A DNA stretch of 48,141 nucleotides, taken from positions 1 to 48,141 of the IMG/VR virus record IMGVR_UViG_3300003322_000196; one strand, 5' to 3'. This document shows, in pieces, positions 6,547 to 48,141 of the stretch; the first letter of the stretch is position 1, and the number at the start of each line of letters is the position of its first letter. The notes under the pieces are model-generated. The model did no database searches. It was not told the origin of the DNA and saw nothing but the letters and a program-made list of their open reading frames with translations. The translations under genes were made by a program, and so were the position numbers. This stretch comes from a virus.

Positions 6547-6552
6547 GCGGAC

Positions 6553-7531: not shown

Positions 7532-7559
7532 GCTAGTAGGCACGGCTGGCACCGAAAGG

Positions 7560-7981: not shown

Positions 7982-8156
7982 GCTCAGACCTCCACTCGAT
8001 AAAGGTAGCAATAGCACCAACAAGGGCTGCTGGCCCTACACCGAGTACTAGATAGACGCCTGCTGGCTCGCCGCAAGGTAGTGCAATGACACCACCAATG
8101 ACGACGAGCCAGCAGACTGCGGTAAAGATCAGTGACAAACGGAGTCCGTAGCTCAT
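7929..8156 (-). CDS. Two-helix membrane protein, 75 aa
   Basis: Two hydrophobic helices (about residues 6-26 and 34-53) separated by a short loop with one Cys, then a charged C-terminal tail (EWRSEREHKTTPANDGD). ATG 8156 has a strong GGGAGGG. It could be an inner-membrane early protein such as a superinfection-exclusion type factor; that is only inference. Confidence 0.75.
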   Translation of the reverse strand: MSYGLRLSLIFTAVCWLVVIGGVIALPCGEPAGVYLVLGVGPAALVGAIATFIEWRSEREHKTTPANDGDVHRVG

Positions 8157-8197
8157 GGACCCTCCCGTGGGGGATAGCGTGTCACTAAGATTACAGT

Positions 8198-8518: not shown

Positions 8519-8730
8519 TACAGTTCCTCGTCGTAAAGGCCGTACTTAGCCGCGTAGATCAGCAGCTTCTTAGCGATAGGGGTATACAGCTCGTCTGAGA
8601 GCACACCGTCGTCGTCGTTGAAGAACTCGGCTAGTCCCTTGAGTTCTTCGGGGGTGAATAGTACGGATAGGCGCTGAGGTTGAGTTTCCCTCGCCTCTTC
8701 CGATACTGCCTTTGCGTCCACCATGTCCAC
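8518..8730 (-). CDS. Unknown protein, 70 aa
   Basis: The start is set at GTG 8728-8730 with AAGGA seven bases upstream, 13 bases after the stop of the previous gene; a TTG at 8790 would overlap that gene and looks weaker. The sequence has an SVLFTPEELKGLAEFF helix and an acidic loop, then a helix ending DEEL. No family recognised. Overlaps the MazG-like gene by one base. Confidence 0.68.
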   Translation of the reverse strand: MDMVDAKAVSEEARETQPQRLSVLFTPEELKGLAEFFNDDDGVLSDELYTPIAKKLLIYAAKYGLYDEEL

Positions 8731-12000: not shown

Positions 12001-12891
12001 GTGCCGTTACCACCAGGGATTTCGACTGTTACGGTTACAGGAAAGTTCCTGGGCCCTGACGGCTCTCCCCTTTCTGGGGAAGTCAAGTTCTACTTACCTT
12101 CCACCATCTCTGTACCGGCTAACGACCTGTTTGTGGACGGCGTTTCTAACAACACGCTGGACGCTAGCGGTAATTTCACCGCCACTCTGTTCGCTACGGA
12201 CAATACGGGTATCAGCCCGACTGGCTGGGCCTACGAGGTGGTTGAAAAGACCAGCGCTAGGACTCGTAGTTACTGGATTGCACTGCCATCCAGCCCATCT
12301 TCGGTAAATCTGGCCGACATTGCCCCTTCTGACCCCGCACGAGGCGATTACGTCATCGTACAGGGTGCAGACGGCGAGCCCGGCCCTCCGGGGGCCCCAG
12401 GAGCTGACGGGGCTGACGGGGCTGATGGTTCCATTATCCGTACGAACACTGTTCGTATCACCAACGACAACCTGTCCGGTATTCCGGCTGCGGCGTCTTG
12501 GGCCATTGTCAAGACGTCCGGAAACACTCCGCTCCAGTGTTCGATTACTGCCTCGGCAGGCGATCGAATTCGCGTGAGCGGTGCTTTTATGAGGAACGGT
12601 TCTCGCTTCCTCGACTGGGCACTTCTGGATAGTGCCGGAAACATCGCGGTCTACGCCGCTTCTCAGACCAGCACCCCACTGTCTGAGGGTAACCCGACCA
12701 TGTACCCAAGCCTGAGCTTCAGCTACGTGCCTGGCGAAGAGATGTTCACCGTAGGTTCCGGCCATATCGATGGGACCGGCAAGGTGACCGTGGCTCTTGT
12801 CAACCAGGGCGTCGCTTCAGGCGTTGTGTATGCGCACCCCGTTTACCCATGGCGGCTGCGACTCGAAAACATCGGTCCTGAGCCGTCTTAA
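12001..12891 (+). CDS. Collagen-repeat fibre-like structural protein
   Basis: 296 residues; GTG 12001 with AGGAGGGG directly upstream, overlapping the end of the terminase gene. Residues 1-115 form a beta-rich domain of fibre-attachment type (GISTVTVTGKFLGPDGSPL). Residues 122-143 are eight G-x-y collagen-type triplets (GADGEPGPPGAPGADG and on). 145-296 is a beta-sandwich-like C-terminal domain. The layout fits a trimeric fibre or head-surface spike. Its place between terminase and portal, instead of among the tail genes, hints at a head fibre. Function is inferred from architecture. Confidence 0.7.
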   Translation: MPLPPGISTVTVTGKFLGPDGSPLSGEVKFYLPSTISVPANDLFVDGVSNNTLDASGNFTATLFATDNTGISPTGWAYEVVEKTSARTRSYWIALPSSPSSVNLADIAPSDPARGDYVIVQGADGEPGPPGAPGADGADGADGSIIRTNTVRITNDNLSGIPAAASWAIVKTSGNTPLQCSITASAGDRIRVSGAFMRNGSRFLDWALLDSAGNIAVYAASQTSTPLSEGNPTMYPSLSFSYVPGEEMFTVGSGHIDGTGKVTVALVNQGVASGVVYAHPVYPWRLRLENIGPEPS

Positions 12892-18615: not shown

Positions 18616-19212
18616 ATGGCTGCAAACGTAGTTAACCTCGTACAGGGTCCAGCTACCGTGTTCATCGGTGCCTTTGGTGCGGCCGAGCCTGCTAACGCTG
18701 CGGTAAACACCACCCCTGCTGCATCTGCCTGGACCGACGTCGGTGGAACCACTGACGGATGTGAGATCTCTGTTAACCAGGAGTACAAGGAGTTAGAGGT
18801 CGACCAGGTTGTCGACATTCCGGGTCGTCGTCTCGTAAAGCGTGACATGTCTGTGAAGACTAACCTCGCCGAGCCTACCCTTCAGAACCTCCTGTACAGC
18901 CTCAACGACGTAAACGGTGGTTCTCTGGGGGCCTCTGGTGCCGGATTCTCCGGATACTACGAGCCTGCCTTCACCGACTCTGCTACTCAGCCTACTTACC
19001 GTGCCGTTCTCCTGTGGGGATGGGCTCCGGGTGGCTCTGGCGCTGGTGGTAGCACCTCTAAGCGTCGTATGGTCATCATGCGTAAGTGCCTGTCTAGCGA
19101 CAACGTAGAGTTCGCTTACAAGAAGGAAGACCAGACCGTCTTCTCTGTAACTTGGAGCGTCCACTACGTATCCAGCTCTATCGCTCCGTTCAAGATCATC
19201 GACGAGGCGTAA
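18616..19212 (+). CDS. Major tail (tube) protein
   Basis: 198 residues starting MAANVVNLVQGPATVFIGAF. It lies directly before the frameshifted tail chaperones and tape measure, the invariant place of the tube protein. The sequence has the WTDVGGTTDGCEISVNQEY and RDMSVKTNLAEPT segments typical of actinophage tube proteins. By hand alignment, residues 9-88 match a domain at the right end of the window at 42 of 80 positions without gaps. Confidence 0.88.
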   Translation: MAANVVNLVQGPATVFIGAFGAAEPANAAVNTTPAASAWTDVGGTTDGCEISVNQEYKELEVDQVVDIPGRRLVKRDMSVKTNLAEPTLQNLLYSLNDVNGGSLGASGAGFSGYYEPAFTDSATQPTYRAVLLWGWAPGGSGAGGSTSKRRMVIMRKCLSSDNVEFAYKKEDQTVFSVTWSVHYVSSSIAPFKIIDEA

Positions 19213-20073: not shown

Positions 20074-20100
20074 GGGATATCCACCTAGGGAGGAATGAAG

Positions 20101-23100
20101 ATGCCAGTAGGATTCCGCATTGCGTCTGCCTGGGTGGATATTCGCGCCGAGGATAAGGGACTCAAGCAGCAGATCAAGACAGCGGTTGAGAAGGCGGCCA
20201 AGGGTAACGACGCCAAGATCCCGCTCAATATCGACAGCAAGGGCCTCCGTCGTGAGGTATCCGATGCTCTCAAGGAAGCCACCTCTAAGCAGAAGCCAAA
20301 GGTGGCTATTGGCATTTCCTCTAAGGGTTTACGTGCTGAGGTAACTAAGGCTCTGAAGGCTGCTACTGAGAAGCAGAAGCCTAAGGTAAAGCTCGGCATC
20401 AACGCCACCGGTCTCAAGGGCGAGGTTCAGCGTGCCCTTACTGCGGCTACCAAGGGGCAGAAGCCTACTGTCAAGCTGGGTATCTCCTCCGTCGGTCTCC
20501 GTGGAGAGGTCCAGAGGGCTCTGAACGAGGCTACAGCGGGCCAGAGTGGCACGGTGACTATCAATGCCCGTGTGGACGGTGACAGGCTCCAGAGGGCCCT
20601 TGCAGACGCCGATCCGACTATCACTCCTCACGTCGACCACCGTGCCCTGCGCCAGAGTCTGATGTCGGCTATCCGTCGTATCAACGTAAACGATGATGTA
20701 ACGATCAACGCCAATATCGATGGCGATCTACTTGCTCGACAGATTCAGTCTGAAATCGGTCGACTGAGGGACCGTTTCCGTGTCCGCATTCACCCCGACG
20801 TGGATGTGGATACTTTTGCTGCCCGTTTACAGGCGGCTGCTCGCTCTGTACCTAGCGATATCGATATCGACCTCAACCCACGGATCAACCAGCTCAAGTT
20901 AAGGGCTGAAGCCGGAAGGGCCTTTGCCGCCCTCCGTGGAAAGATCCAGTTCGACGGTGAACTCAAGACCGCCATGCTGGCAGCTCAGGTAAAGGCTGCG
21001 CAGGCTGCTCTTAACCGTATGGGTCGCGACCTGACTTTCCGTGCCAAGGTTGATGTAGACACCGCCGCTGCCCGAGCAAAGATCGCAGCTATGAACGCGA
21101 TGCTCAGGGATCATGGCGGACACTGGACTCGCTGGGCTCAGATTGCCGTAGCAGCCGCCCTTGCTGTTGGTCCAGCCCTTTCTGTCGTAGACCGTGCTCT
21201 TCGCTCTACAGGCGCGTCTCTGGCCGTTCTCGTGCCAATGGTGACGGGCCTCTCTGCCATGCTCGCAACCTTCTTCGTAGGTATGAGCGGCGTGGCGGCC
21301 ACCATCTCTGGTGTATTCGAGACCAGCAAGACTGCCATTAACCAGCTCGGAGACAACTTCGAGCGACTGTCACCAGAGGCCAAGAAGTTCATCCAGGCAC
21401 TCCAGGGCGTAAAGACTGGATTCACCCAGCTCCGTATCGACGTCCAGGACCAGCTCTTCAAGGGTATGGACAAGACTCTGGAGAACTTCACCCACGCCAG
21501 CATGCCTGCCCTGCGTAGGGGTCTTGCTGAGACCGCCATGAACATGAACGCCATGGCTAAGGGTGCAACTGACGTAGTTAACCGTGCATCTCGTATGGGT
21601 GAACTGGACGCTATGTTCCAGGGTATCAACGTTGCTTTCGGTCAGCTTATCCCGTTACCAGGTCAGTTCCTCAACGGCCTGATCAAGACTTCCATCGCCG
21701 CTACTCCGCTGCTCACCCGAATGAACTCTGCATTCGCTAACTGGGCACGTAACATGACGGACCGCCTCAACCAGGCGTTTACCGATGGAACTCTTCAGCG
21801 TGCTATCTCTTCTGCTGGTGACACCATTGTCAACTTCTTCCGTCGTATCGCTAACAACCCTGAGTGGAACACCTTCGTAAGCCGTATGAAGGAAAACGGC
21901 CCTCGTATGGCCGAGGCATTCGCCCACATCTCTGAGGCGCTGCTGAAGATCCTCAACGCTCTGTCACCTATCACAGGTGTGATCATGACCGTTGTGGATG
22001 CCTTCGCGCGCATGATCAACGCGATGCCGATCGAAGTCCTTACCCTGATCATTACCAAGCTGGTCCTCTTCAAGACTGCTCTGCTGATCGGTACCTTCGT
22101 AGTTTCTCTGACCGATAAGATCATCTTGCTGCGTAGGGCTATGGTGACCCTCGGCAGCCAGGCGGCGATGGTTGACGCCATTCGTGGACGTCTTACTGCT
22201 CTCGGTCTGACCGCTCCTGCTATCAACCGAGTAGCCACTGCTATGCGTGCGGTTGGCAGGGCCATCATGGGTGCTCTGCTCATCACTACTCTGGTATGGG
22301 CATTCGAGGCCATTGGTAACAAGGCCAAGGGTGCTGCTCCAGATGTGGAGAAGCTGTCTACTTCTCTGAAGGAGCTTGCCGTATCCGGTAAGTTCACTGG
22401 TGAGCTGAAGAAGAACTTCGGTAGCAACATCGATGATGTCGTTGAGAAGCTGCACACGCTTCACGAGAAGATGGCGGAGCACAAGAAGGATCTGAGTGAG
22501 GGTAACTTCGGTCCAGACACCCCTCTTGACGACTTCGGTCAGTGGATCTCTGACGGTATCAAGAAGATGTCCGAGGGTCACGACTCTCTGTGGGCGCTGA
22601 AGGATGACTTCAAGTCCTTCGACAAGGCTCTCGCAGACATGGCCAACAATGGCTACAGCACCCAGGCTGCTGAGGACTTCGCCAAGCTCAAGAAGGCTTG
22701 GCTGGAGGCTGGTTACCCTCTTGACGAACTCATCAAGAGCTTCCCTGAGTACAAGGATGCTCTGGGTGGTCTGAAGACCGCTCAGAAGCTGGCTGCTGAG
22801 GGAATGGGTGCGTACGGTGCTCAGGCTGTCGTAATCCAGGGTCAGCTTGATGCTCAGCGTCGTGCGGCCGATGGTCTCAAGCAGTCCATTGAGGCTCTGA
22901 ACGATGCCCACCGTCAGGCTGCCGGTGGAGAGATCGCTATGGAGTCTGCTCTTGACTCCGCAACCGGCACTATCGAGACCAACATGAAGGCGCTCAAGGA
23001 CTCCTCTATGGGCCTTGACGTTCACACGGAGAAGGGCCGCCAGAACAGGCAGGCTCTGCTCCAGCTTGCTCAGACAACCTCTGATTACGCTCAGGCCAAG

Positions 23101-26100
23101 CTCCAGGAGACCGGTTCTTACACCGAGGCCAACAAGATCTACGAGCGTGGTAGGGAGCAGTTCGTCAAGCTGGCTATGGCTGCGGGTGCGACTCGTGAAG
23201 AAGCCAAGAAGCTGGCTGAGCAGTGGCTCAAGATGCCGGACAAGAAGATCGCTCTTGATGCCGATGTCGATTCTCTTGACCGTAAGATCGCAGATGCCCA
23301 GGCTGAAATCGACAAGCTGAAGCAGAAGCGCAAGGTTGCCGTTGGAGCCGACAAGAAGGATCTTGATGACAAGATCACTAAGGCTCAGGCTGAGCTGGAC
23401 CTTCTTGAGGCCCGTAAGAACGAAGTTCTGATCGAGGCCACTATTGACGATCTGAACACTAAGATCGACAAGGCTCAGCAGACTGTCGATGACCTTAAGC
23501 AGAAGCGTAAGACTGCTGTCGGTGCTGATAAGAAGGACCTTGACGATAAGATCAAGAAGGCTCAGGAAGCCCTTGACGCTCTGAAGCAGAAGAAGAAGGC
23601 TGCTATCAAGGTCAAGGACGAGACTAAGCAGACTATCGACAACATCCAGTCACGTCTCGATGGAATCAAGGACAAGACCGTTACCGTCACCGTTATCGGT
23701 AACAACGTCTACAAGTACAAGGAAGGCGCCAACATCCCTGGCTACGGAGGCAACATTCCGAGCCATGCGACCGGTGGTCTGATCAGGGGTCCGGGTTCTG
23801 GTACCTCTGACAGCATCATGGCGCGTCTGTCCAACGGTGAGTACGTCATGACTGCCGCCACCGTAGAGAAGTACGGCGTCGGTTTCATGAAGGCGCTCAA
23901 CAACGGCACCCTCAAGCTGCCGAAGTTCGCCGCTGGTGGTCCCGTCACAGGCGGTGGAGGCACCTCTGGGGCTTCCGGAGTCAAGGCAGGGGAAACTACA
24001 GGTACCTTCACCGTCAAGGACGGCACAGGCAAGCCTGTGGCTTCTGCGGTCAACAACTTCAAGGCACTCAAGATCGCCCTCAGCCAGACCTACCAGGACA
24101 TGGCTACCAAGACTACGCTCTTCGGTAACCAGTTCCAGGCCAAGTCTGACGTGACCTACAAGGCTGTTCAGTCTGCGGGTACTGAGTTCGGACGTAAGCA
24201 GGTTAACGATCTCAACGCCACTCGTAACAAGTCCCAGAACATCTGGAGTTCTTGGAAGAGTGGTATGCAGAACCGTACTACTGCTACTTACAAGACTCTT
24301 CAGACGCAGGGCAGTGCCTTCCAGAAGAACCACACCGCCACCGCCTCTAAGGCCAGCAGCTCTACCCAGAGCATCTGGACTGGGTGGAGGACCGGTATGA
24401 CCACCCGTACCAACGACACCTACAAGAAGATCAACTCTGCGACCAGCAGCTTCTCTAAGCAGTCCACTACCAAGATCGGTCAGGCCCGTGACGGTATGGG
24501 TGCTGCCTGGGGTGGTTTGAGCCCTAAGTTCAAGCCACCTGTCAGCTACCTGGTTCACACAGTCATCAACAAGGGTGTTGTTGGCTCTATGAACGCCATC
24601 ATGCAGAAGCTCGGTGGCGGTAAGAGCGTAGGTGGAATCAGCGTCCCTGGATTCGCTACTGGTGGTCCTATCTACGGAGCCGGAAGCAAGACTTCCGACT
24701 CTATTCCTGCTCGCCTGAGCAACGGTGAGTACGTAATCCAGGCCAAGGCCGTGGATAAGTTTGGCGTGGGCTTCTTCAACCAGCTCAACCGTGGAAGCAT
24801 GCCGGGTCAGGGTGCAGGCTACAAGCCTGGATTCGCAACCGGCGGCCCAGTCAATATCAGGATGGCTGGATTCGCTAGCGGAGGTCTTGCTGGAGTTCCG
24901 TCTGCTGACACCCTTAACAAGATCATGGGTGAAGGTGGCGACGCCGACGTCAAGAAGATGACCGACTTCATCATGAACAACTACGTCCTTCCGCTGATTG
25001 ACAGCGGTCCGGGCGGTTCTGCGATGAAGGACGTTCAGCGTGCCGGAATGAACCACATCCGTAGCAACGTAGAGAAGTTCGTCAAGGACAACTTCGGCGG
25101 TGCCGGATCTGCGGCTGCGGGTCTCCGTTGGGCTAAGACTCAGTACGGGAAGCCTTACCAGTGGGGTGGAAATGGTAACCCTAGCTGGGATTGTTCAGGG
25201 TTCATGTCTGCTATTGAATCCGTAATTCGTGGCGAGAAGCCACACCGTCGTTGGAGCACTCACGCCTTCTCTGGTGCTACTGCTCCTTCTGGTTGGCGTC
25301 TTGGAGCCAAGGCTCCATTCCAGATCGGTATCACTAACGCGGGTGTTGGTCACACCGCCGGTACTATCGGCAAGGAGAACGTCGAGTCTTCTGGTGGAAT
25401 CGGTGTCCACGGTGGTGTAGGAGTTCCGCGTGGAGCCCACGACGGTCTCTTCAGCGCGGTTTACGGATATGTCGGCCCGAACGCCACTAAGAAGGCCCGT
25501 GGTGGATACATCAGCGGACCTGGCGGCCCTCGTGACGACAAGGTTGCTGCATGGCTGTCTAACGGCGAGTTCGTTATGCGTGCCGCCGCCGTTAAGAGGC
25601 TGGGTACTGGCTACCTCAACGCCCTGAACAGTGGGCAGATCCCAGGATTCGCATCTGGTGGTTCTACCAGCAGCACCACTTACAAGGTGAAGTCCGGAGA
25701 CACCCTTTCTGAGATTGCTCAGAAGTTCCACACCACTGTTAGCGCCCTGATGGCTCTGAACAAGAACATCAAGGATGCCAACAAGATTTACGCGGGGCAG
25801 ACCCTCGTAATCAAGAAGGCTATCTCCAAGGGCAGCAGCGGTTCGTCTTCGTCTGGCAAGGTGGCTACTGCGCCGAAGGGCGACATCCAGGATGCCGGTG
25901 CCAAGACTTCTCTCCAGAACCTGGTAACGCTTCGTGAGAGTCAGGTAATCGCCAACTCCAAGGCGGGCGCCAAGTACATGAACGAGGCGATGACTAACAT
26001 CACCGCCCAGAGTGATATGGATACCCTGGTATCCAACCTCACTCAGTTCAAGAGCGCCATTCTCGACGCTTTCAAGGGCAAGACCCAGGATGTTCTGGCA

Positions 26101-27009
26101 GCCAAGTTCACTTCTACCGCCAACAAGCTGATTCCTCTTCAGAGCAAGCTCGATGGCGTAACCAAGAAGCTGGGCGAGGCTCAGGAGAAGCTGGACGACC
26201 TCAAGCAGAAGTTCGACAGCCTCAAGGATTCCGTATCCGGAGCCGTTTTGGACTTCGGAAAGATCACCAAGGTTGGAACCTACGGAACCAGCGGTTCTAC
26301 CCTCCTTGCTCAGCTCCAGAAGGACACAGGCAAGGCTACCGAATTCGCCAACATGCTGGAACAGCTTAAGGCGAAGGGTGTTAGTGGAGATCTGATCGGA
26401 CAGATTGCCGAGGCCGGAGTTACTGGCGGTGGAATGGCGACAGCCCAGACCGTCCTGAATATGACTCCGGAGCAGCTTAAGCAGCTCAACTCTCTCCAGG
26501 CTGAGCTGACCAAGCAGGCAAACAAGGCCGGAGAAGCTGCGGCTACTGGCATGTACGGAGCCGGTGTTGCGGCTGCTGAGGGCCTGGTAAAGGGTCTTGA
26601 GGCTCAGCAGAAGGCTATTGAAGCCCAGATGAAGGTAATCGCCGACGCCATGGTGCAGGCGATCCGTCAGGCTCTTGGCATCAAGTCCCCATCCACGGTC
26701 ATGATGCAGGTAGCCGACTTCACTGCTGACGGTCTTGTAAACCAGCTTATTGCCCGTAAGGACGAAGTCGACCAGACCATGCGTTCTTTGGTAACTGTTC
26801 CTACCGCTGGAATCAATGCACCAGCCACTGGAGCTGGTACAATTGGCGGTGGATCTAGTGTTACTCAGGTAACCCGTATCGAGAACCTTCACGTTCACGT
26901 TAACGGAACCTTCGAGTTGAATACCCCTGCCTCTCGCAAGACTCTGGCTAAGACCATTGTCAAGGAGATGAAGGAAGAGATTCGTCTGGACGACAAGAAG
27001 CGCAAGTAA
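20101..27009 (+). CDS. Tape measure protein with NlpC/P60 and LysM domains
   Basis: 2,302 residues from ATG 20101 (GGGAGG seven bases upstream; the ATG at 20095 is too close). The N-terminal part has about four 28-residue repeats (SKGLR.EV..AL.EAT..QKPKV), then hydrophobic segments near 340-405 and 630-660, and coiled coils with repeated DKKDLDDKI..AQ around 1060-1170. Three 45-residue GG..GPGSGTSDSI.ARLSNGEYV repeats start near 1225, 1521 and 1801. An NlpC/P60-like peptidase around 1675-1790 has catalytic C1698 (WDCSGF) and a GHTAG His. A LysM domain lies at about 1859-1907 (YKVKSGDTLSEIA). At roughly 0.15 nm per residue the tail would be near 340 nm. The peptidase probably opens peptidoglycan at DNA entry. 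Confidence 0.93.
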   Translation: MPVGFRIASAWVDIRAEDKGLKQQIKTAVEKAAKGNDAKIPLNIDSKGLRREVSDALKEATSKQKPKVAIGISSKGLRAEVTKALKAATEKQKPKVKLGINATGLKGEVQRALTAATKGQKPTVKLGISSVGLRGEVQRALNEATAGQSGTVTINARVDGDRLQRALADADPTITPHVDHRALRQSLMSAIRRINVNDDVTINANIDGDLLARQIQSEIGRLRDRFRVRIHPDVDVDTFAARLQAAARSVPSDIDIDLNPRINQLKLRAEAGRAFAALRGKIQFDGELKTAMLAAQVKAAQAALNRMGRDLTFRAKVDVDTAAARAKIAAMNAMLRDHGGHWTRWAQIAVAAALAVGPALSVVDRALRSTGASLAVLVPMVTGLSAMLATFFVGMSGVAATISGVFETSKTAINQLGDNFERLSPEAKKFIQALQGVKTGFTQLRIDVQDQLFKGMDKTLENFTHASMPALRRGLAETAMNMNAMAKGATDVVNRASRMGELDAMFQGINVAFGQLIPLPGQFLNGLIKTSIAATPLLTRMNSAFANWARNMTDRLNQAFTDGTLQRAISSAGDTIVNFFRRIANNPEWNTFVSRMKENGPRMAEAFAHISEALLKILNALSPITGVIMTVVDAFARMINAMPIEVLTLIITKLVLFKTALLIGTFVVSLTDKIILLRRAMVTLGSQAAMVDAIRGRLTALGLTAPAINRVATAMRAVGRAIMGALLITTLVWAFEAIGNKAKGAAPDVEKLSTSLKELAVSGKFTGELKKNFGSNIDDVVEKLHTLHEKMAEHKKDLSEGNFGPDTPLDDFGQWISDGIKKMSEGHDSLWALKDDFKSFDKALADMANNGYSTQAAEDFAKLKKAWLEAGYPLDELIKSFPEYKDALGGLKTAQKLAAEGMGAYGAQAVVIQGQLDAQRRAADGLKQSIEALNDAHRQAAGGEIAMESALDSATGTIETNMKALKDSSMGLDVHTEKGRQNRQALLQLAQTTSDYAQAKLQETGSYTEANKIYERGREQFVKLAMAAGATREEAKKLAEQWLKMPDKKIALDADVDSLDRKIADAQAEIDKLKQKRKVAVGADKKDLDDKITKAQAELDLLEARKNEVLIEATIDDLNTKIDKAQQTVDDLKQKRKTAVGADKKDLDDKIKKAQEALDALKQKKKAAIKVKDETKQTIDNIQSRLDGIKDKTVTVTVIGNNVYKYKEGANIPGYGGNIPSHATGGLIRGPGSGTSDSIMARLSNGEYVMTAATVEKYGVGFMKALNNGTLKLPKFAAGGPVTGGGGTSGASGVKAGETTGTFTVKDGTGKPVASAVNNFKALKIALSQTYQDMATKTTLFGNQFQAKSDVTYKAVQSAGTEFGRKQVNDLNATRNKSQNIWSSWKSGMQNRTTATYKTLQTQGSAFQKNHTATASKASSSTQSIWTGWRTGMTTRTNDTYKKINSATSSFSKQSTTKIGQARDGMGAAWGGLSPKFKPPVSYLVHTVINKGVVGSMNAIMQKLGGGKSVGGISVPGFATGGPIYGAGSKTSDSIPARLSNGEYVIQAKAVDKFGVGFFNQLNRGSMPGQGAGYKPGFATGGPVNIRMAGFASGGLAGVPSADTLNKIMGEGGDADVKKMTDFIMNNYVLPLIDSGPGGSAMKDVQRAGMNHIRSNVEKFVKDNFGGAGSAAAGLRWAKTQYGKPYQWGGNGNPSWDCSGFMSAIESVIRGEKPHRRWSTHAFSGATAPSGWRLGAKAPFQIGITNAGVGHTAGTIGKENVESSGGIGVHGGVGVPRGAHDGLFSAVYGYVGPNATKKARGGYISGPGGPRDDKVAAWLSNGEFVMRAAAVKRLGTGYLNALNSGQIPGFASGGSTSSTTYKVKSGDTLSEIAQKFHTTVSALMALNKNIKDANKIYAGQTLVIKKAISKGSSGSSSSGKVATAPKGDIQDAGAKTSLQNLVTLRESQVIANSKAGAKYMNEAMTNITAQSDMDTLVSNLTQFKSAILDAFKGKTQDVLAAKFTSTANKLIPLQSKLDGVTKKLGEAQEKLDDLKQKFDSLKDSVSGAVLDFGKITKVGTYGTSGSTLLAQLQKDTGKATEFANMLEQLKAKGVSGDLIGQIAEAGVTGGGMATAQTVLNMTPEQLKQLNSLQAELTKQANKAGEAAATGMYGAGVAAAEGLVKGLEAQQKAIEAQMKVIADAMVQAIRQALGIKSPSTVMMQVADFTADGLVNQLIARKDEVDQTMRSLVTVPTAGINAPATGAGTIGGGSSVTQVTRIENLHVHVNGTFELNTPASRKTLAKTIVKEMKEEIRLDDKKRK

Positions 27010-33743: not shown

Positions 33744-34334
33744 TCACATCCTTGCGTCGCCGTGGTTGGCCAGACCGCTTGTGTTCTGTCCGTGTGCATT
33801 CCAGAGCCAAGTACGCTGAGGGATGTGGACGATCTTGGCACCTGCGGCAATGCATTCGACGGTGAACTGGAAATCTTCACCATAACGCTGGCCATCAATC
33901 AGTCTACCAGGTTCTACGTCCCGAAAGCCCACTGACTGAGCGAGTTCCGTACGAACTAGAGTAGTGATCGTAGTCTGCGTCGGATTCTCAGGATCGAAGA
34001 CCTTACCGAAGTGCGGGAGAGGATCATAGCGGAATCCAATCGGGTCATACCACGTGTAGAGGTAGTCTGCCCCCGTTGCCTGGGCTCCGTGTGCCAGAGT
34101 TTCCAGGTGGTTCTTCTTCATCTGATCGTCCGAGTCCAGGAATGCCACCCATTCGGTAGTGACCTTCTGAAGCCCTCGGTTACGGGTTACCGCTGCGCCC
34201 TCGCGGTACTTGTCGACCTCAACGATAAGCCCAGAGGGCGTAAAGCTCTGCATCAGTGCAGAGCCAAACGCCCTCTTGGTCATACCGTTGCTTAACCGCG
34301 CCGGGTGCGTCGGGATAACAACGGTGATGTCCAT
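33744..34334 (-). CDS. GT2-like glycosyltransferase, 196 aa
   Basis: Starts MDITVVIPTHPARL, the usual beginning of a GT-A nucleotide-sugar domain. AFLDSDD (about 63-69) is the metal-binding DxD, and GEDFQFTVECIAAG is the acceptor-side ED motif of family 2. Short but complete for a single-domain enzyme. Last glycosyltransferase of the cassette; its start overlaps the upstream stop (TGATG). Confidence 0.83.
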   Translation of the reverse strand: MDITVVIPTHPARLSNGMTKRAFGSALMQSFTPSGLIVEVDKYREGAAVTRNRGLQKVTTEWVAFLDSDDQMKKNHLETLAHGAQATGADYLYTWYDPIGFRYDPLPHFGKVFDPENPTQTTITTLVRTELAQSVGFRDVEPGRLIDGQRYGEDFQFTVECIAAGAKIVHIPQRTWLWNAHGQNTSGLANHGDARM

Positions 34335-35017
34335 CAGCTAAACAGCCTGCCTTCCTGTGACCTGTGGCCCCACATATGGACCGCGTAGGAGTTTGCTGCC
34401 AGTCCTCGGACCTCGAAATCCTCGAAGTCGTCGGTACCGTACGGAACTTCTTCGTGGTGTACGGGGTAGAAAGCCTCCCGAGAGAGGATCTTTACGTCGT
34501 AATCACCGCTCCGCCACACTCGGGTGAGGTGCTGCGGGCCGGTAGCGACTTCCATACCGATGCCTTCGTAATTCATCAGGCTGGCATTCAGTGTGTGGAT
34601 GGTGTCAGTGAAGAGAGGATGATGGGCCTCTCCACCCATGACCGCGTTACAGACGTGGTAGTCGTCTTCCATCCCCAGGAAGGCGCTGTGCTCCGTCAAT
34701 CCGTCAAAGGACTTCAGGGGGAGCATATCGCAATTGAGGTAGACACCCCCGAACTGATGAATCAGTTCGTAGGCTGCGATGTCCGCCCGCATAACGGCCA
34801 CGGCCCGATCGTGAGACATCTGAACGCCACACGACTTAGCAGTCTCAGCCACGTGGTCGAAAGCCCACTGATTGTGTAGCTCTGGAAGATTATGCTCCGT
34901 CCAGGTGTAGAACTCCCAGTCCGGATGAAGCTCTTGCCAGGCTATCCAGTACTCGTCGTACCGGACGGGGCGCTCACGCGCCCCGAACCAGATACGGTGA
35001 AACCTCTTAGGAATCAC
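34334..35017 (-). CDS. GT32-like glycosyltransferase (OCH1/capsular type), 227 aa
   Basis: Begins IPKRFHRIWFGARERP, and has the ADIAAYELIHQFGGVYLNCD segment characteristic of the DxD sugar-binding region of family 32, although the motif here reads NCD and not DxD. GTG 35015-35017 overlaps the upstream TGA. It transfers a hexose or similar sugar to a glycan or protein; acceptor unknown. The altered DxD might change metal use. Confidence 0.8.
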   Translation of the reverse strand: MIPKRFHRIWFGARERPVRYDEYWIAWQELHPDWEFYTWTEHNLPELHNQWAFDHVAETAKSCGVQMSHDRAVAVMRADIAAYELIHQFGGVYLNCDMLPLKSFDGLTEHSAFLGMEDDYHVCNAVMGGEAHHPLFTDTIHTLNASLMNYEGIGMEVATGPQHLTRVWRSGDYDVKILSREAFYPVHHEEVPYGTDDFEDFEVRGLAANSYAVHMWGHRSQEGRLFS

Positions 35018-35874
35018 AGTCGCTCCGAAATCTCCCTGTACTGATCCAGGATGTCCGTCTGCTTACGGATGTGATCCGTATGCGGGAAGAAGGAGAGATG
35101 GGACACCAGAGCATTTCCAATGATCATGTTCGGCACGTTCCTGTTAAGAGGTTCGTGCACGGTGTGCCAGCTCTCTTCCTCGTAGTAACTGAGGTTACCA
35201 GGTCCGGCGGGGAGGCTGGCGTACATCTGCCCGTTCGAGGCGAAGCACGATACCGAGAACTGAAGTCCGATCGGAAGCTGGATATCGTGGTGAAGGAATA
35301 GGTCCTCCACCGTGTCGTCCCGGATATTGGCCAGCAGTAGCCGATGGATCTGCTCAGCGAAGTGAGCGTCACCCCAGCCGACGGGGTCCATGCAGTAAGG
35401 CGCACGAACCACGCCAAAAGCCTCGGGGATCTTCCCCATCTTCTGGAGCCAGTACGAACAGATCGCGTTGTGCCAGATGATCGGGAAGTGGGCCACGGTC
35501 ATGCCCGACGCAATCTTCGAGGCGGCTAGCCTTTCGATCGCCTTGTCATGAACGTAAACGATATCGTCGTCGAGACGGATAAAGATGGTGTCCGGCTCGA
35601 TAGCGTGCAGGTAGAAGAAACCCGTGTTGAGCTGCTTAGGGTGAAGGACTGCCCGGTCTGCCGGACGGTCCTTCAGCTTGATCCAGTCGTACTGCTCGGC
35701 CAGTTCGTGGGCGTATGCCACGTCCTCTACCTGATCCGGATCGGTGTTCATGTACAGCCAGTACTCGTCCACGATTCCGGCGTCATGGTCCCGCTTCATG
35801 TACTTAGAGAGGATAGTCATGGTCTCCTTACGTCCGTAAGGAGTCCACGTCACTACTCGGCGTCCGTCGATCAC
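35014..35874 (-). CDS. Putative glycosyltransferase (GT-A fold), 286 aa
   Basis: GTG 35872-35874 overlaps the TGA of the epimerase gene and follows GGAG; an ATG at 35898 has no ribosome site. A central IFIRLDDDIVYVHDKAIERL gives a GT-A-style acidic DDD with surrounding strand-helix pattern. The rest, including MTVAHFPIIWHN and FFPHTDHIRK, is unlike families I know. Position inside the coupled sugar cassette supports a transferase role. Family assignment is uncertain. Confidence 0.65.
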   Translation of the reverse strand: MIDGRRVVTWTPYGRKETMTILSKYMKRDHDAGIVDEYWLYMNTDPDQVEDVAYAHELAEQYDWIKLKDRPADRAVLHPKQLNTGFFYLHAIEPDTIFIRLDDDIVYVHDKAIERLAASKIASGMTVAHFPIIWHNAICSYWLQKMGKIPEAFGVVRAPYCMDPVGWGDAHFAEQIHRLLLANIRDDTVEDLFLHHDIQLPIGLQFSVSCFASNGQMYASLPAGPGNLSYYEEESWHTVHEPLNRNVPNMIIGNALVSHLSFFPHTDHIRKQTDILDQYREISERL

Positions 35875-36827
35875 TGCTCGCTCCAGTGTGGGTACCATTC
35901 AGTGTGGTAGTACTCTACGGTCTCACCAATGCCCTTACGAAGGCTCGTAAAGGTGTCCTCGTGGAATTCCGCAGGAAGCTGGAGTAGAGAGCCTACGTCG
36001 GCGCATACAACCGCGTTAGGAACCTCTCCCGGCCTCATTGGTAGGTGGGCGACCTGTACAGGCTCCTTGCCGGTCACAAGAGCCACCTCATTACGGACCA
36101 GGTCTGCCACCTGGTTAACGGTTACAGAGGAGGCAGGTCCGACACCGACTGGTGTTTCGAGTGCTCCGTGCTGATCGGTGTATTCGAGGGCTCCGACAAA
36201 GACGCGAGCGACATCTCCCACGTACACACAATCCGAAATCTGAGTTCCGTCTCCGTAAATTTCGATGGTGTGACCAGCGAGTGCACGACAGACAAAACTC
36301 GGCATGATTTTGCGGACCTTGGATGTCCCATAAGGTGCAGCAACAGACTGTCCCGGCCCGTAAGCGTTGACGGGGCGAACAACGGAGATGCGGCTTCCTC
36401 GGTACTTGTTGAACATTCGAGTGAAGTCTTCAGCCGCAGTCTTCGAAATGGTGTAGGCCCCTGTTCCGTGGTCACGCATCCAGTGGTTTCCCACCCCTGC
36501 GTACACCACGGGCAGGTCATACTGGTTAGCAGCTTCGAAGACATTGAGCGATCCCAAGATGTTCGTTTCAGCAGACGGACGAGGGTTTTCAATGGTCTCC
36601 TGCGTACCGAGTACAGCAGCAAGGTGGATGATCCCTTCGACGTGAGCTGCCAACTCTACCACGGCAGTTGCGTCGCGTACATCTCCCTGGAAGAACTCGG
36701 CTTCCCCACCACAAGTGAGCCAGTGGTTGTGACGGTCGAATACGACCACCTCATGACCACGATCAAGTAATTCCTTGGTAATCCAGGAGCCGATAAAGCC
36801 CTGGCCTCCAGTTAAGCCTACCTTCAC
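35871..36827 (-). CDS. NAD-dependent epimerase/dehydratase (extended SDR)
   Basis: 318 residues from GTG 36825-36827, which overlaps the TGA of the dehydratase gene and has AAGGAG upstream; the frame is open to 36905. Rossmann GGQGFIGSW (GxxGxxG) binds NAD; HLAAVLGTQETI and YTISK (YxxxK catalytic pair) follow; late FVGALEYTD. Resembles UDP-glucose 4-epimerase or related sugar epimerases/reductases. The usual Ser of the triad region reads AGVGNHW, so activity may be unusual. It works with the dehydratase to make a modified nucleotide sugar. Confidence 0.82.
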   Translation of the reverse strand: MKVGLTGGQGFIGSWITKELLDRGHEVVVFDRHNHWLTCGGEAEFFQGDVRDATAVVELAAHVEGIIHLAAVLGTQETIENPRPSAETNILGSLNVFEAANQYDLPVVYAGVGNHWMRDHGTGAYTISKTAAEDFTRMFNKYRGSRISVVRPVNAYGPGQSVAAPYGTSKVRKIMPSFVCRALAGHTIEIYGDGTQISDCVYVGDVARVFVGALEYTDQHGALETPVGVGPASSVTVNQVADLVRNEVALVTGKEPVQVAHLPMRPGEVPNAVVCADVGSLLQLPAEFHEDTFTSLRKGIGETVEYYHTEWYPHWSEQ

Positions 36828-37834
36828 AGCAGCCACTCCTTGTGGTCCACGGTCCACTCGACCGTACGTCGTAGAGATTCCTCGAATGAGATTGGGGCTC
36901 GCCACCCCACACCGGCTAGCTTAGATCCATCGAGAGCGTATCGAAGGTCGTGACCCGGCCTGCTTTCATGGAAGTTGACCGGCCTTAGATACGCAGGAAC
37001 CTTCAAGATATCAGCCACCAATTCTACCATCTCCCAGTTGTTGACCTCCCTTTCTCCAACGATGTGGAATCGCTGAGGGGTGTCGTACTCGGGATAGGTC
37101 TGAAGGAACCCTCCATTGGCGCTGAGGAAGGTCCAGGCATCCGCCAGATTCCTGGCGTGAAGGTAGAACCGAGAGCCTGGTACCAGGTCTGGAGAGACGT
37201 GCACAGGTACGTGCTCTCCTGCTAGCAGCTTGCTGATCGTCATCGGCAGGAACTTCTCCTTGTCCTGCATTTCACCGATGATGTTCATCGTGTTAGTGAT
37301 GACAATAGGCAGGCCATATGTACGCCAGTAAGAAAAGCAGATAGCTTCCTGAGCAGCCTTGGACCCGCTGTACGGATTGGACGGTTTGATGGCGTCCCAC
37401 TCCAAGTGGTTATAGCCCTGGGGAGCCGGACCGTAGACCTCGTCCGTACTCATCTGGAGAATGAGGTTGGGGTGGATCTTACGGGCGTAATCCAGGACGT
37501 TGACCATCAGGTCGACATTGTTCTGGATGAACCGGCCGGGCTCCTCAATGGAGCGATCGACATGGGAGTCCGAGGCGACATTCCAGATCTCGTCTACCTG
37601 TCCAATACGCTGGATAGTGGGCTCATCGATCGGCGCCGTCAGGTCGAGCATGATGACCTGAACTCGACGCTGCCAGTCTTCGTTCCCCTCAAGGGCTGAG
37701 GCGATACGGTCACTCTTACCCCTGTGGGTGAAAGTGACCGGGCATACGACGTGCCAAGTCGTGTTCATCAGGATATGGCGTAGAACGTGGCTTCCCACGA
37801 ATCCGCCTGCACCTGTTAAGAAGATACGCTTCAT
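36824..37834 (-). CDS. dTDP-glucose 4,6-dehydratase-like enzyme (RmlB family)
   Basis: 336 residues. TGAGGFVGSH (NAD-binding), ASDSHVDRSIEEP (RmlB signature), STDEVYG (Asp-Glu catalytic pair) and YSGSK (YxxxK) appear in the proper order, with TNTMNIIGE afterwards. RmlB makes dTDP-4-keto-6-deoxyglucose, the first step to deoxysugars such as rhamnose. The ATG at 37834 overlaps the upstream stop (TGATG); GTG codons just before are weaker. Full-length for the family. The presence of a dedicated enzyme suggests the phage does not rely only on host sugar pools. Confidence 0.88.
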   Translation of the reverse strand: MKRIFLTGAGGFVGSHVLRHILMNTTWHVVCPVTFTHRGKSDRIASALEGNEDWQRRVQVIMLDLTAPIDEPTIQRIGQVDEIWNVASDSHVDRSIEEPGRFIQNNVDLMVNVLDYARKIHPNLILQMSTDEVYGPAPQGYNHLEWDAIKPSNPYSGSKAAQEAICFSYWRTYGLPIVITNTMNIIGEMQDKEKFLPMTISKLLAGEHVPVHVSPDLVPGSRFYLHARNLADAWTFLSANGGFLQTYPEYDTPQRFHIVGEREVNNWEMVELVADILKVPAYLRPVNFHESRPGHDLRYALDGSKLAGVGWRAPISFEESLRRTVEWTVDHKEWLL

Positions 37835-38862
37835 CACCACTCCGTAAGAGCCTTGGCCCAGTCGTCAATGTTGCCCTCTAAGGTCCACTGACGGGCCTTT
37901 TCCTTAGCCGCTGCACCCATCTCGGCACGCATATCGGTGTCATTCACCAACTCGTTGAGGAACTTAGCCCACTCGTGATCCCTCTTGACAAGGAAACCGG
38001 TCTTGCCGTGCTCAACGAATTCCGGGTAAGGGCCACAATCACTGGCAACAAGAGGAATGCCTAATGCCGCAGCTTCCAGAGCTTTGAGGTTGGACTTGGA
38101 CTGGTTGAAGACGTGCGGACGTAACGGAGCCAGAGCGATATCGAAATCGATAGAGCGCCATACATTCTCTACCCCGTTGATCCACTCGGTGTAGCGGACC
38201 TGCTCTTCAGGGAGCTTGAACCAGTTACCGTACTTACCACCCATCAGGTGGAAGCCGACTTCCGGGTTGCGCTTGAGGAAGCGAGACACGTGAGGAGCGG
38301 CCTGCTCCCAGTCCATGGAGTGGGTGTGGGAACCCATCCAACCGATGGTCAGGCGCTCGTTCTTTGGCCTCTCCCAATCGAGAACCCACTCCGGGATGCG
38401 GTTCGGTACAACGACGACGTTTTCGTTGTACTGGCGGACTAAGTTAGCCAGAGCGTCAGTAGTAACTGTAACGCGGTCAGCTACCGAGATGTTGGCCTTG
38501 ATGTTGCCCTGCACATCGTGGAAGGTCTGTGTACGGAAGTCGTACCCGTTGATGAACCAGTCGAAGGCCGCCACGTTGCTCGGGTCGACGTTCCACAGGT
38601 CGTCGTCCAGCTCGTAGACGAGCTTAGGACGCTGGCCTGGGTAATGGGCCATGGTCTGCCAGAGATTGGTAGGGGAGTCCTTGCAGACACGCTGGCCGAG
38701 AAGCACCTTAGGCATGAACCCCTTGGTCTGTAACTTCTCGTCGTACTTGACCGAGATGCCCCGCTCTTCTTCCAACGTGTCTAATGGCTGCATCACTCGG
38801 ATGGTGCCACAACCGGCACGGTCGGCTAACCAGCCGAATACGTCAACAGTATCGGTACTCAT
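37834..38862 (-). CDS. GT-B (GT4-like) glycosyltransferase, 342 aa
   Basis: The C-terminal SNLKALEAAALGIPLVASDC and GPYPEFVEHGKTGFLV segments are the classical donor-binding EX7E-like region of family 4. A middle LTIGWMGSHTHSMDWE begins the second Rossmann domain. The N-terminal 130 residues form the acceptor domain. First gene of the sugar cassette proper; the ATG overlaps the upstream stop (ATGA). Donor nucleotide sugar is probably the product of the two neighbouring enzymes, by inference. Confidence 0.83.
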   Translation of the reverse strand: MSTDTVDVFGWLADRAGCGTIRVMQPLDTLEEERGISVKYDEKLQTKGFMPKVLLGQRVCKDSPTNLWQTMAHYPGQRPKLVYELDDDLWNVDPSNVAAFDWFINGYDFRTQTFHDVQGNIKANISVADRVTVTTDALANLVRQYNENVVVVPNRIPEWVLDWERPKNERLTIGWMGSHTHSMDWEQAAPHVSRFLKRNPEVGFHLMGGKYGNWFKLPEEQVRYTEWINGVENVWRSIDFDIALAPLRPHVFNQSKSNLKALEAAALGIPLVASDCGPYPEFVEHGKTGFLVKRDHEWAKFLNELVNDTDMRAEMGAAAKEKARQWTLEGNIDDWAKALTEW

Positions 38863-42866: not shown

Positions 42867-44393
<1,527 letters not shown>

Positions 44394-45156: not shown

Positions 45157-46023
45157 ATGGCTACTCCAATGACAGCTAGCCAGATCGTCGCACAGTTGAA
45201 GAAGTGGGGCATCAAGTACGTTGAAGTGAAGTCTTGGGAGACCCACAACCGCAACTCTAAGGGTCCTTGGGGCGGCGTCAACGGCTTCATCTGGCACCAC
45301 ACCGGAGCTGACACCAGCAACCCTGCTGCGTACGCTGCCGGAACTCTCTACGACGGTATCTCGGGTCTTCCAGGCCCTCTGTGCCACTTCGGCTTAGCTC
45401 CTGACGGCACTGTGTACCTGGTGGGTTGGGGACGTGCCAACCACGCGGGTGGTGGCGACCCGGCGGTCCTGAACCATGTGATTAACGAGGACTACACAGG
45501 ACAGCTCAAGCCAACTAAGGGCAACAGCAACGGAGTTGACGGCAACGCTCACTTCTATGGCGTTGAGATCATGTACTCCGGCTCTCACAAGATGACGGAT
45601 GCTCAGTACAAAACTGCTCTCAAGTTATCTGCTGCCATCTGTGAGTTCCACGGCTGGTCTGAGAAGAGCGTCATCGCTCACGGTGAGTGGTCGTCTGACA
45701 AGTGGGACCCTGGCTACGCAAGCGGCAAAATCATGAACATGGTCGAGGTCCGTGCTGACGTCAAGGCCGTTAAGGCTGCTGGTCCTAAGCCAACTACTAC
45801 TCCACCTCCAACTACCCCGGAGACTCCCGTGGTTGACAAGCCAACCCCTAAGACAGCTACCTACAAGGAAGTCTGGGACCTGGACGCGGCTACACCGCCC
45901 GCCGGTCACGCTACTGCGGAGAACCCGTCTTGGGCTCCGATGAGTCTTCTTCGAGGCATCTACGAAAAGGTAGAGGGCCTGGAGAAGGAAGTTGCCGCGC
46001 TCAAGGCAAAGCTCGGCGAATAG
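45157..46023 (+). CDS. Endolysin, N-acetylmuramoyl-L-alanine amidase (Amidase_2/PGRP)
   Basis: 288 residues, no signal peptide. Zinc ligands H47 (FIWHHTG), H175 (SVIAHGEWS) and D184 (KWDPG) in PGRP order, with HFGLAPDGTVYLVGWGRANH between. A Pro/Thr linker (about 209-232) leads to a C-terminal segment of 55 residues with a helix (LLRGIYEKVEGLEKEVAALK) that may oligomerise or bind wall. It cleaves the amide between MurNAc and the stem peptide. Located between the membrane protein and the holin-like gene, so the main lysis enzyme. Confidence 0.88.
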   Translation: MATPMTASQIVAQLKKWGIKYVEVKSWETHNRNSKGPWGGVNGFIWHHTGADTSNPAAYAAGTLYDGISGLPGPLCHFGLAPDGTVYLVGWGRANHAGGGDPAVLNHVINEDYTGQLKPTKGNSNGVDGNAHFYGVEIMYSGSHKMTDAQYKTALKLSAAICEFHGWSEKSVIAHGEWSSDKWDPGYASGKIMNMVEVRADVKAVKAAGPKPTTTPPPTTPETPVVDKPTPKTATYKEVWDLDAATPPAGHATAENPSWAPMSLLRGIYEKVEGLEKEVAALKAKLGE

Positions 46024-46036: not shown

Positions 46037-46222
46037 GTGTTCGTAAAGCGTCTCGTTGAGGAAGCTGCTTACGCATTCGTAGGTGGTTTCGCTGTAGCTC
46101 TCCAGACCTCTGGTGACCTCAGCACCGCCGCATTAACCGGTGCAGCTCTTGCCGGTGTTCGTGGCGTAGTCGGTGTTCTTGTGAAGAACTTCGGTGACAA
46201 GGACAAGCCGTCTGTGCAGTAA
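46037..46222 (+). CDS. Holin-like membrane protein, 61 aa
   Basis: GTG 46037-46039 with AAAGGA upstream. Starts MFVKRLVEEAAYAFVGGFAVAL if GTG is read as Met, with two weakly hydrophobic helices (about 8-22 and 28-50) rich in Ala/Gly/Val, and a basic C-terminal tail (KNFGDKDKPSVQ). Directly after the endolysin. Hydrophobicity is modest, as in several actinophage holins. Function by position. Confidence 0.72.
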   Translation: MFVKRLVEEAAYAFVGGFAVALQTSGDLSTAALTGAALAGVRGVVGVLVKNFGDKDKPSVQ

Positions 46223-46232: not shown

Positions 46233-46266
46233 TATAATGATCAGGGACTCGGGTTTCCGGGTCCCT
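46233..46266 (+). promoter_or_regulatory. TATAAT box followed by a hairpin
   Basis: TATAAT 46233-46238, then a ten-pair stem (46243-46252 with 46257-46266; one T-G pair; GTTT loop) followed by GTTCTATT. This could be a promoter with a 5' hairpin leader, or the terminator of the lysis cassette, or both. The ribosome site GGAGG follows about 10 bases on. Confidence 0.5.
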
Positions 46267-46285
46267 GTTCTATTGGAGGATTGGG

Positions 46286-46873
46286 ATGTCTAACGACACA
46301 ATCAAGTGGGTGCCTTTTGCCCGCATCGATAAGTACAGCCCAGAGGTTGTGGAAGAGCTAACCCGTATCCTCGGATACGAACCACAGGCTGCTGACTTCA
46401 AGCGCTTCAGCGCAGACCCTTATGCCGTCACCGAGGTAGAAGGAAATGTCCTCTGCATCGGTGGTTTAGGCTTTATCACCGCTGCGTTAATCTCCGGTAC
46501 CTTCGACCCACTTACTCAGGCTCGTGCCTTCGTTGGTGTAGGTACTGACTCGGCTACCGCCGCTGCTGCATCTCAGACCGCATTAGTCGGTGCTTCGCAG
46601 TACTACAACACCTTCGACGCCAACCCGACACGTGTGACTACGTCTCAGACTAACGACTCTATTCAGGCAGTCTCTACCTTCGGTACCTCCGTAGCCAACT
46701 TCGCCTGGAATGAGTGGGGTTGGTTCACCACTACTACTGGAACCATCACTCCTGGTACCGCTGTCAACGTCTCTTCTGGTACGGAGACCATGTGGAACCG
46801 TCGTGTTGTTTCCATGGGTACGAAGGCATCCGGAGCCTCTTGGGCCTTCACCACTAAGGTTCAGTTCACGTAA
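46286..46873 (+). CDS. Probable tail or fibre structural protein, 195 aa
   Basis: Starts MSNDTIKWVPFARIDKYSPE, a helix-rich N terminus, then GLGFITAALISGTFD and ARAFVGVGTDSATAAAASQT, a pattern seen in phage tail proteins of the beta-sandwich type. GGAGG precedes ATG. It is followed by another structural gene. No enzymatic motif is visible. Confidence 0.68.
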   Translation: MSNDTIKWVPFARIDKYSPEVVEELTRILGYEPQAADFKRFSADPYAVTEVEGNVLCIGGLGFITAALISGTFDPLTQARAFVGVGTDSATAAAASQTALVGASQYYNTFDANPTRVTTSQTNDSIQAVSTFGTSVANFAWNEWGWFTTTTGTITPGTAVNVSSGTETMWNRRVVSMGTKASGASWAFTTKVQFT

Positions 46874-46891: not shown

Positions 46892-48141
46892 ATGGCTAAG
46901 CTGTCGACACTCTTCGATGATTTCGAAAACGGCACTTTCGACACCACCCTCTGGAATGACAGCGTAAACGTTACAGAGGCTAGTGGTTATGCCACAATTC
47001 CCCAGTCGGCTGCCTATACCAACAAGTTAGGTACGACCAACACCTACGACTTCTCTTCGGATTCGTTCCAGTTCGAAATGACGTTCCCGAGTGCAGCGGT
47101 CACTGGTGCTGAGCAGTATTGCCAGATCTACACTGGAGCGGCTGGACAGACGATTCAGATGGGTCGTCTCCAGCAGTCGATTGGTTACGACTACAACGGA
47201 AACAGTGAATTCGTCACGTATAACGCGACGAACCACCGCTTCTGTCGAATCCGTACGACTGCTACCCAGATCTTCTTCGAGACATCGAGCGACGGAAGTA
47301 CTTGGGTAAACCCGTTTACTACCGGTGTACGTACTCTTGCCGCTTGGAGCTTAACCAGCGTAGCCGTCCAGTGGATCAACGGATTCTTCTCCGGTGCCGG
47401 TGGCGGCGACATGCGCATTATGCAGGTCGGTGTCAACTCCACGACGGCTGTTACAGGTTCGGACACCGAGACTGGAGTAGAGACTCAGTCCATCGGTATC
47501 ACCGACGCTGAGACAAGCACTGGTGTTGAGAGCAACACTATTTCGTCTAGCGGCTCTCAGACTGAAACTCAGACCGGTGCCGAAAACGAAGTGATCGGCG
47601 TTACCAGTACGGACACCAGTTCGAGTACAGAGTCCGAATCGATCGCACAGCCTACCAGCGATTCGGAAGTCACAGGTGCTGGTACAGAAACGCAGAGTAT
47701 TGCGTCTAGTCTTTCTGATACCGAGACCGAGACGGCTGCGGAGACGTTCTCTCTGGCTGTCCAGATTTCCGACTCCGACACGGCGTCGAGCTTGGACTCC
47801 GAGAATGTAGCCGATGATCCCGAAGAACAGGATGCCTTTGTCGGCGGCGAGTCCGAGTGGATTCAGATCCTCGGGGCCCCCGCTACCGAGCGCTCTCTGG
47901 TCTTGGGGCCCGCCACCCTCTACATTGCTCCATTCGGGGCTGTAGAGCCCGCTAACGGCCTCGTAGGCAGTGCGCCAGACTCCGGAGTCTGGACGGACCT
48001 CGGAGGCATTCTGGGAGGCGTAGAGCTATCAGTCGACCAGGAGTGGATCGAGGTTGAGCTAAAGCAGCTTCCGGACAAGCCGATGAAGCGGCTGAAGAAG
48101 CGCAGGCTGACGATCAAGACCCAGCTTGCTGAGCCGACACT
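46892..48141 (+). CDS. Lectin-like, Ser/Thr repeat and tail-tube-domain fusion (partial, runs off right edge)
   Basis: ATG 46892 with GGAGGAGGG upstream; open for 416 codons to the window end. Residues 1-185 look like a concanavalin/laminin-G-type jelly roll (STLFDDFENGTFDTTLWND). Residues about 190-305 are seven 15-19-residue acidic Ser/Thr repeats (pattern D-T-E-T-x-x-x-E-x-x-S-I). From residue 337 the sequence (VLGPATLYIAPFGAVEPAN) aligns to the major tail protein of this phage (42 of 80 identical by hand, no gaps). This is the only second copy of that domain in the window. It may be a decorated tube subunit or a tail-surface spike. The C-terminal end is not visible. Confidence 0.8.
   Translation, partial: MAKLSTLFDDFENGTFDTTLWNDSVNVTEASGYATIPQSAAYTNKLGTTNTYDFSSDSFQFEMTFPSAAVTGAEQYCQIYTGAAGQTIQMGRLQQSIGYDYNGNSEFVTYNATNHRFCRIRTTATQIFFETSSDGSTWVNPFTTGVRTLAAWSLTSVAVQWINGFFSGAGGGDMRIMQVGVNSTTAVTGSDTETGVETQSIGITDAETSTGVESNTISSSGSQTETQTGAENEVIGVTSTDTSSSTESESIAQPTSDSEVTGAGTETQSIASSLSDTETETAAETFSLAVQISDSDTASSLDSENVADDPEEQDAFVGGESEWIQILGAPATERSLVLGPATLYIAPFGAVEPANGLVGSAPDSGVWTDLGGILGGVELSVDQEWIEVELKQLPDKPMKRLKKRRLTIKTQLAEPT

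Follow-up and report, generated by a model that had tools for sequence, protein, structure and literature searches.

A second tail-tube paralogue forms the C-terminal part of a stalked Con A-like protein in a relative of Streptomyces phages

A phage related to the Streptomyces phages encodes, besides its ordinary major tail protein, a second and diverged tail-tube paralogue that serves as the C-terminal part of a protein with an N-terminal Con A-like domain and a long acidic stalk. We consider it probable, though well short of certain, that this fusion is an accessory virion protein, anchored in the tail tube, which displays its Con A-like arms to host glycans and thereby aids adsorption. The gene lies at the end of the window, by which we mean the whole virus record of 48,141 bases. 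Comparison of the window with itself found no end repeats, and the contig is thus read as incomplete. From an ATG at 46892, preceded by a GGAGG-type ribosome site, the reading frame extends on the + strand for 416 codons (to 48139), is open to the last base and runs off the contig end. Together with about 104 residues modelled on a sister phage described below, the full protein would comprise about 520 residues. Among named phages, no nucleotide relative of the window's last 4 kb was found.

Table 1. Parts of the fusion gene and related or neighbouring genes in the window.
Feature	Coordinates	Strand	Basis
Normal major tail (tail tube) protein	18616..19212	+	phrog_2175, sub-threshold PF25681, KimJongPhill gp22
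Endolysin (Amidase_2)	45157..46023	+	Pfam PF01510, E 2e-19
Small hydrophobic protein, putative holin	46037..46222	+	Sequence inspection
Gene preceding the fusion, phrog_23653	46286..46873	+	Rhodococcus relatives annotated minor tail protein
Fusion residues 1-185: Con A-like (lectin/glucanase-type) beta-sandwich	46892..47446	+	phrog_14065, AlphaFold, Foldseek
Fusion residues 186-312: acidic Ser/Thr stalk, seven imperfect 16-19 residue repeats	47447..47827	+	Composition, motif chain versus shuffles
Fusion, tail-tube-protein (TTP) domain, first 84 residues, cut by the contig end	47888..48141	+	Identity to the phage's own major tail protein, phrog_2175, L002

The C-terminal part of the fusion is homologous to the phage's own tail tube protein. 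BLAST of the translation against the window aligned fusion residues 335-416 with the major tail protein without gaps at 43 of 82 identical positions (E 2e-22), a recount that leaves the originally predicted 42 of 80 essentially exact. Because the alignment begins at residue 7 of the tail protein, the fusion holds the tube domain from its first strand onward. The ordinary protein is 43% identical along its length to gp22 of Streptomyces phage KimJongPhill, annotated as major tail protein, and phrog_2175 matches both the ordinary protein and the tube part of the fusion (fusion E 1e-9). The fusion gene is located 28 kb away from the tail module, the terminator-to-chaperone interval in which the ordinary gene holds its canonical place; this position rules it out as the main tail protein, though not as a paralogue. 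Elsewhere on the + strand, the window encodes a tape measure protein of 2304 residues in which endolysin/transglycosylase-type and LysM matches occur (20095-27009) and, between the terminase and portal genes, a tail-fibre-like protein with collagen-type repeats (12001-12891).

A scan of IMG/VR returned a single locus related to the fused tube domain; this locus, L002, lies at one end of the 61.6 kb contig G001 (IMGVR 3300046616_000205). At this locus a repeat-like stretch (PSDSDTPSVSESWSIVIFGASVP) leads in frame to ERSLVLGPATLYIAPFGAVEP and on through the remaining tube domain to FRVVDAA and a stop codon, after which come a hairpin terminator of 19 pairs and a gene in convergent orientation. 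G001 has thirty tRNA genes a short way past the fusion gene (53336-60304); the window has none. The two tube parts are 76-82% identical where they are shared, and over its full length the L002 domain shares about 50% identity with close ordinary tail proteins. When reversed, the first ~7 kb of G001 map onto window positions 959-8545, while a 24.9 kb contig from the same metagenome, G007, maps onto 8521-35062. Since the two maps adjoin, the contigs abut, and they very probably represent one sister phage. G007 carries the ordinary tail protein, 83% identical to that of the window, so the fusion is a true second paralogue in the sister as well. The arrangement implies a circularly ordered genome of about 100 kb, in which the fusion gene sits where the window end meets the G001 end. 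Its repeats probably caused both contigs to break inside this gene, and the break accounts for the truncation; the N-terminal half is missing from the sister contig, and the lectin domain is observed in one of the two fusions, that of the window.

The sister locus allowed the tube domain to be examined in full. Homology to the phrog_2175 TTP family covers the first 84 residues in the window and the whole domain in L002, which is 35-52% identical to 58 TTPs. AlphaFold modelled the L002 domain with a mean pLDDT of 86 from 60 aligned sequences, and Foldseek against the PDB retrieved the tail-tube and connector proteins of Douge, Bxb1, Mycofy1, JBD30, Chi, YSD1 and lambda V, indicative of a tail tube fold. 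With both paralogues present in the sister phage and a complete tube fold there, the proposal that the C-terminal part is a true TTP paralogue is borne out, whereas the possibility raised alongside it, that the similarity would stop soon after the window and lack a tube fold, is contradicted.

A tree built from 60 tube proteins grouped the two fusions in a clade with 100/100 support and a stem length of 0.77 changes per site, and this clade fell within the group of the window's own tail protein with modest support (82/83). The 58 ordinary TTPs share 62 positions that are at least 85% conserved; the fusion's tube copy keeps 49 of these and alters 13, among them D82 (to K) and P141 (to L), both invariant in 58 of 58. 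Six of the altered positions (76-92) fall within or beside the loop that joins the two longest strands of the AlphaFold model (59-79 and 89-103). In the JBD30 tail tube a hinge loop mediates the contacts between discs, and by analogy the changed loop may correspond to it and form a likely ring-stacking contact. Given the changes at invariant residues, those in this loop included, we find it as credible that the tube copy forms a dedicated ring or has another partner as that it is inserted at random along the tube. A ring built from the fusion's tube copy is plausible, and the lost invariant residues and long stem may mean that this copy is unable to co-assemble with the main tube.

The TTP fold is used in many parts of the tail, tail terminators and distal tail proteins among them. 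This range, the changes at residues that are invariant among ordinary TTPs, some of them in the loop between the two long strands, and the two major tail proteins reported for actinophage clusters EL and DJ would all suit a protein whose tube-fold domain forms one dedicated ring or adaptor at a tail end, at the neck or the tip, so that the arms make a collar or tip crown instead of decorating the side. We regard such an end location as unlikely, if worth serious weighing: the domain is nearest to the major tail proteins of its own phage group and keeps most of their conserved positions (the 49 of 62 above), and its sequence carries no mark of an end location.

At the other end of the protein, the N-terminal ~185 residues match positions 465-635 of phrog_14065 (E 3.7e-10). 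AlphaFold, given 54 related sequences, produced a model with a pLDDT of 84, for which Foldseek retrieved Con A-like domains from GH43 and GH16 enzymes, a legume-lectin-like domain and, among viral models, BRock and the minor tail protein of KimJongPhill. By homology and fold, the domain belongs to the Con A-like phrog_14065 domain group. The GH16-type ExDxE catalytic motif is absent from it, and a PDB sequence search with its profile gave no match; a single-sequence scan of viral sequences found no relative, whereas the alignment query did. The Con A-like scaffold is common to non-binding and enzymatic domains too. The term "lectin-like" used in the original prediction is a fair description of the predicted fold, a Con A-like beta-sandwich, and holds as such. 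Separately, a 401-residue protein encoded at 6326-7531 (+ strand) matches GH16 with an E value of 1.4e-6, above the Pfam cut-off, and has a 45% identical copy in G001.

The 127-residue middle segment contains 50 Ser or Thr residues and has a net charge of -27, and within it the motif E/D-x-x-S/T-I/L/V occurs seven times at a spacing of 16-19 residues. The longest such chain in 10,000 shuffles was four; as the motif was chosen after viewing the sequence, this comparison is supportive but not strict. Tandem Repeats Finder reported nothing on the fusion gene DNA because the repeats are degenerate at that level. Composition and motif chain together agree with the acidic Ser/Thr stalk of seven repeats that had been described from the sequence at the outset. 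On the minus strand, positions 33744-38862 encode a phage-type glycosyltransferase (phrog_14775), a GDP-mannose 4,6-dehydratase-like protein, an NAD epimerase-like protein and a group 1 glycosyltransferase, a cluster that might glycosylate virion proteins, perhaps the Ser/Thr stalk.

The fusion gene was first placed right after the lysis genes. It does lie with the endolysin and the putative holin, but one gene intervenes, that of the phrog_23653 protein. The putative holin itself gave no family match. Between it and the intervening gene we noticed a GC-rich hairpin of 11 pairs followed by a weak T run (46242-46267), which may separate the lysis operon from the pair formed by the intervening gene and the fusion. 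Besides the amidase endolysin, the window encodes on the minus strand (42867-44387) a 506-residue multi-domain cell-wall hydrolase with transglycosylase-like, NlpC/P60-like, LysM and M23-type peptidase segments. Location by the endolysin and putative holin would also be expected of a late protein that is not part of the virion, is freed at lysis and binds host debris or neighbouring cells while its tube domain adheres to tails or caps them. This reading appears very improbable, given that no signal peptide or membrane segment was seen by eye in the fusion protein, that annotated tail proteins contain the lectin family, and that relatives of the intervening gene's product are annotated as minor tail protein.

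Comparison with the sister phage bears on whether the tube part is functional at all. With two examples only and a long stem branch, it could be a functionless, accidentally fused copy of the tail protein that is in the course of decay. The tube parts of window and sister differ with a Ka of 0.13 against a Ks of 1.23 (Ka/Ks about 0.1), indicative of purifying selection, by which decay is disfavoured; the lack of stops, the complete domain, the good ribosome site and the strong hairpin terminator after the sister gene argue the same way, and we give the decay reading hardly any credence. Least credible of all is an assembly chimera, in which the contig end would have been joined to another phage's tail-tube gene fragment, as the GC step from 0.54 to 0.63 at the tube segment and the stop of the gene at the contig end might suggest; we rejected it because L002, in another record, has the identical in-frame junction of repeats and ERSLVLGPATLYIAPFGAVEP with mostly synonymous divergence. 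The GC step could mark acquisition of the tube domain, although the GC of L002 (0.57) is not so high.

In our preferred reading, an accessory virion protein with a tube anchor, the fusion would be produced late, and its tube paralogue would enter or cap the tail, as mixed-in subunits or as a specialised ring, and so hold the protein in or at the tail tube. The stalk, perhaps up to roughly 40 nm when fully extended, would keep the Con A-like domain off the tail, where its putative binding activity might provide weak, multivalent contacts with host surface glycans and help adsorption. Supporting this are the homology and fold of the tube part, the presence of both paralogues in the sister phage, purifying selection and the 100/100 clade. 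Sequence comparison adds support, with the lectin family found in annotated minor tail proteins that share the lectin-repeat-module layout and relatives of the intervening gene found beside repeat-stalk proteins with other C-terminal modules; so, by analogy, do the tube modules of 936 phages and Douge, which bind host cells or glycans. Against it speak the lost invariant residues, the long stem, the position of the gene outside the structural operon and the existence of only two examples, one of which shows the lectin domain.

The lectin-plus-stalk part is a common display architecture of actinophages in which the C-terminal module varies; in the window phage that module is the tube paralogue. 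Relatives of the N-terminal domain were found in Streptomyces phages Hiyaa, Galactica, Spocter, Kromp and Ponzi, those of Hiyaa and Galactica being annotated as minor tail protein, as is KimJongPhill gp28, which also contains the lectin family. Scanning with the lectin alignment yielded 80 loci, many of which encode the lectin domain, short repeats and then a C-terminal module; this module is LtfC-like in IMG/VR locus L178 (below the Pfam cut-off) and a short, unassigned end in others. Hiyaa gp13, Galactica gp11, L178 and L189 thus resemble the fusion in N-terminal family, repeats and the presence of a C-terminal module, but theirs is LtfC-like or another short domain where the fusion has a tail-tube domain. 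In Rhodococcus phages Shagrat (gp3-gp5) and REQ1 (Orf62-Orf64), as in the window, a homologue of the intervening gene's product is encoded near repeat-stalk proteins, here with D-(S/T)-G-x-G-x-D-x-x-x-V repeats, and in REQ1 also near a lysin; these stalk proteins differ in having another N-terminal domain (glycine-rich in REQ1) and an "RTVKV"-type C-terminus without a tube domain. A 354-residue protein of L027 (12666-13727), encoded near an endolysin, starts with a Con A-like motif (SDDFNRAN) and ends with IPAERRRLTV/AAEPRTLII repeats, a lectin-repeat-module layout with yet another C-terminal module.

We infer that the C-terminal module may decide where a display protein docks. A bolder extension, possible though we doubt it in its full form, holds that the diverged tube paralogue builds a dedicated accessory ring bearing N-terminal lectin arms on long Ser/Thr stalks, possibly O-glycosylated (genes for glycosyltransferases and sugar-nucleotide enzymes are present in the phage itself), and that the tube fold is purely an anchor, swappable with the family's other C-terminal modules. 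If true, the tail-tube fold has been copied and reused as a dock for host-binding arms encoded away from the tail operon, and a widespread, little-characterised actinophage lectin-stalk architecture is tied to defined virion positions through swappable C-terminal modules, with the testable rule that the C-terminal module tells the position of the arm.

The fusion itself appears to be rare. Among about 130 tube-domain loci examined, a coding N-terminal extension was present only in the window and L002; the IMG/VR tube-domain scan comprised the best 80 of 157 tube loci, so that a distant fusion among the others could be missed. A fusion-specific IMG/VR scan with both fusion tube domains returned L002 alone, and across 50,697 phage records the fusion occurred in no named phage. 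In the Streptomycetales-order neighbourhood of 392 genomes, all 12 TTPs lay in open frames of 185-241 residues, which leaves no room for a fusion. Apparent upstream extensions of some TTPs at high-GC loci were rejected, as their translations are rich in Arg, Pro and Ser and a normal start lies at the domain edge. In the literature searched for second tail tube proteins, only the pairs of clusters EL and DJ were relevant, and no diverged tube paralogue anchoring a stalked Con A-like domain beside lysis genes was found.

Decorated tail tubes are well known from other phages. In the 936 lactococcal phages, the tail-tube carbohydrate-binding extension TpeX binds host cells (PMC6669499), and in mycobacteriophage Douge an Ig-like domain of the TTP binds mycobacterial host glycans (PMC13033339). 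TpeX resembles the fusion, as predicted here, in that a carbohydrate-binding module is joined to a tail-tube protein and decorates the tail. In contrast, TpeX extends the main tail protein at its C-terminus by a programmed frameshift and adds a BppA-type module, whereas the fusion is a separate in-frame paralogue gene with an N-terminal Con A-like module on a long acidic stalk, and thus falls outside the 936-type class. Lambda gpV, SPP1 gp17.1*, JBD30 and Douge likewise place a surface domain on the tube, as proposed for the fusion; theirs is a small C-terminal Ig domain of the same gene product, carried by every or many subunits, with no stalk and no second gene. For actinophage clusters EL and DJ a pair of major tail proteins is reported (PMC11080557, PMC10652937), and these phages, like the window phage, have two tail-tube genes per genome; unlike those of the window, Damascus gp17 and gp19 lie two genes apart, and the available text of these reports describes no lectin-stalk fusion. 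The description of the fusion as an uncommon way to decorate a tail is fair for its layout, but the decoration of tail tubes with carbohydrate-binding modules is already known from the 936 phages and Douge. Given that decorated tubes and second tail proteins have both been described before, what is new here is a separate tube paralogue as the C-terminal anchor of a stalked Con A-like domain.
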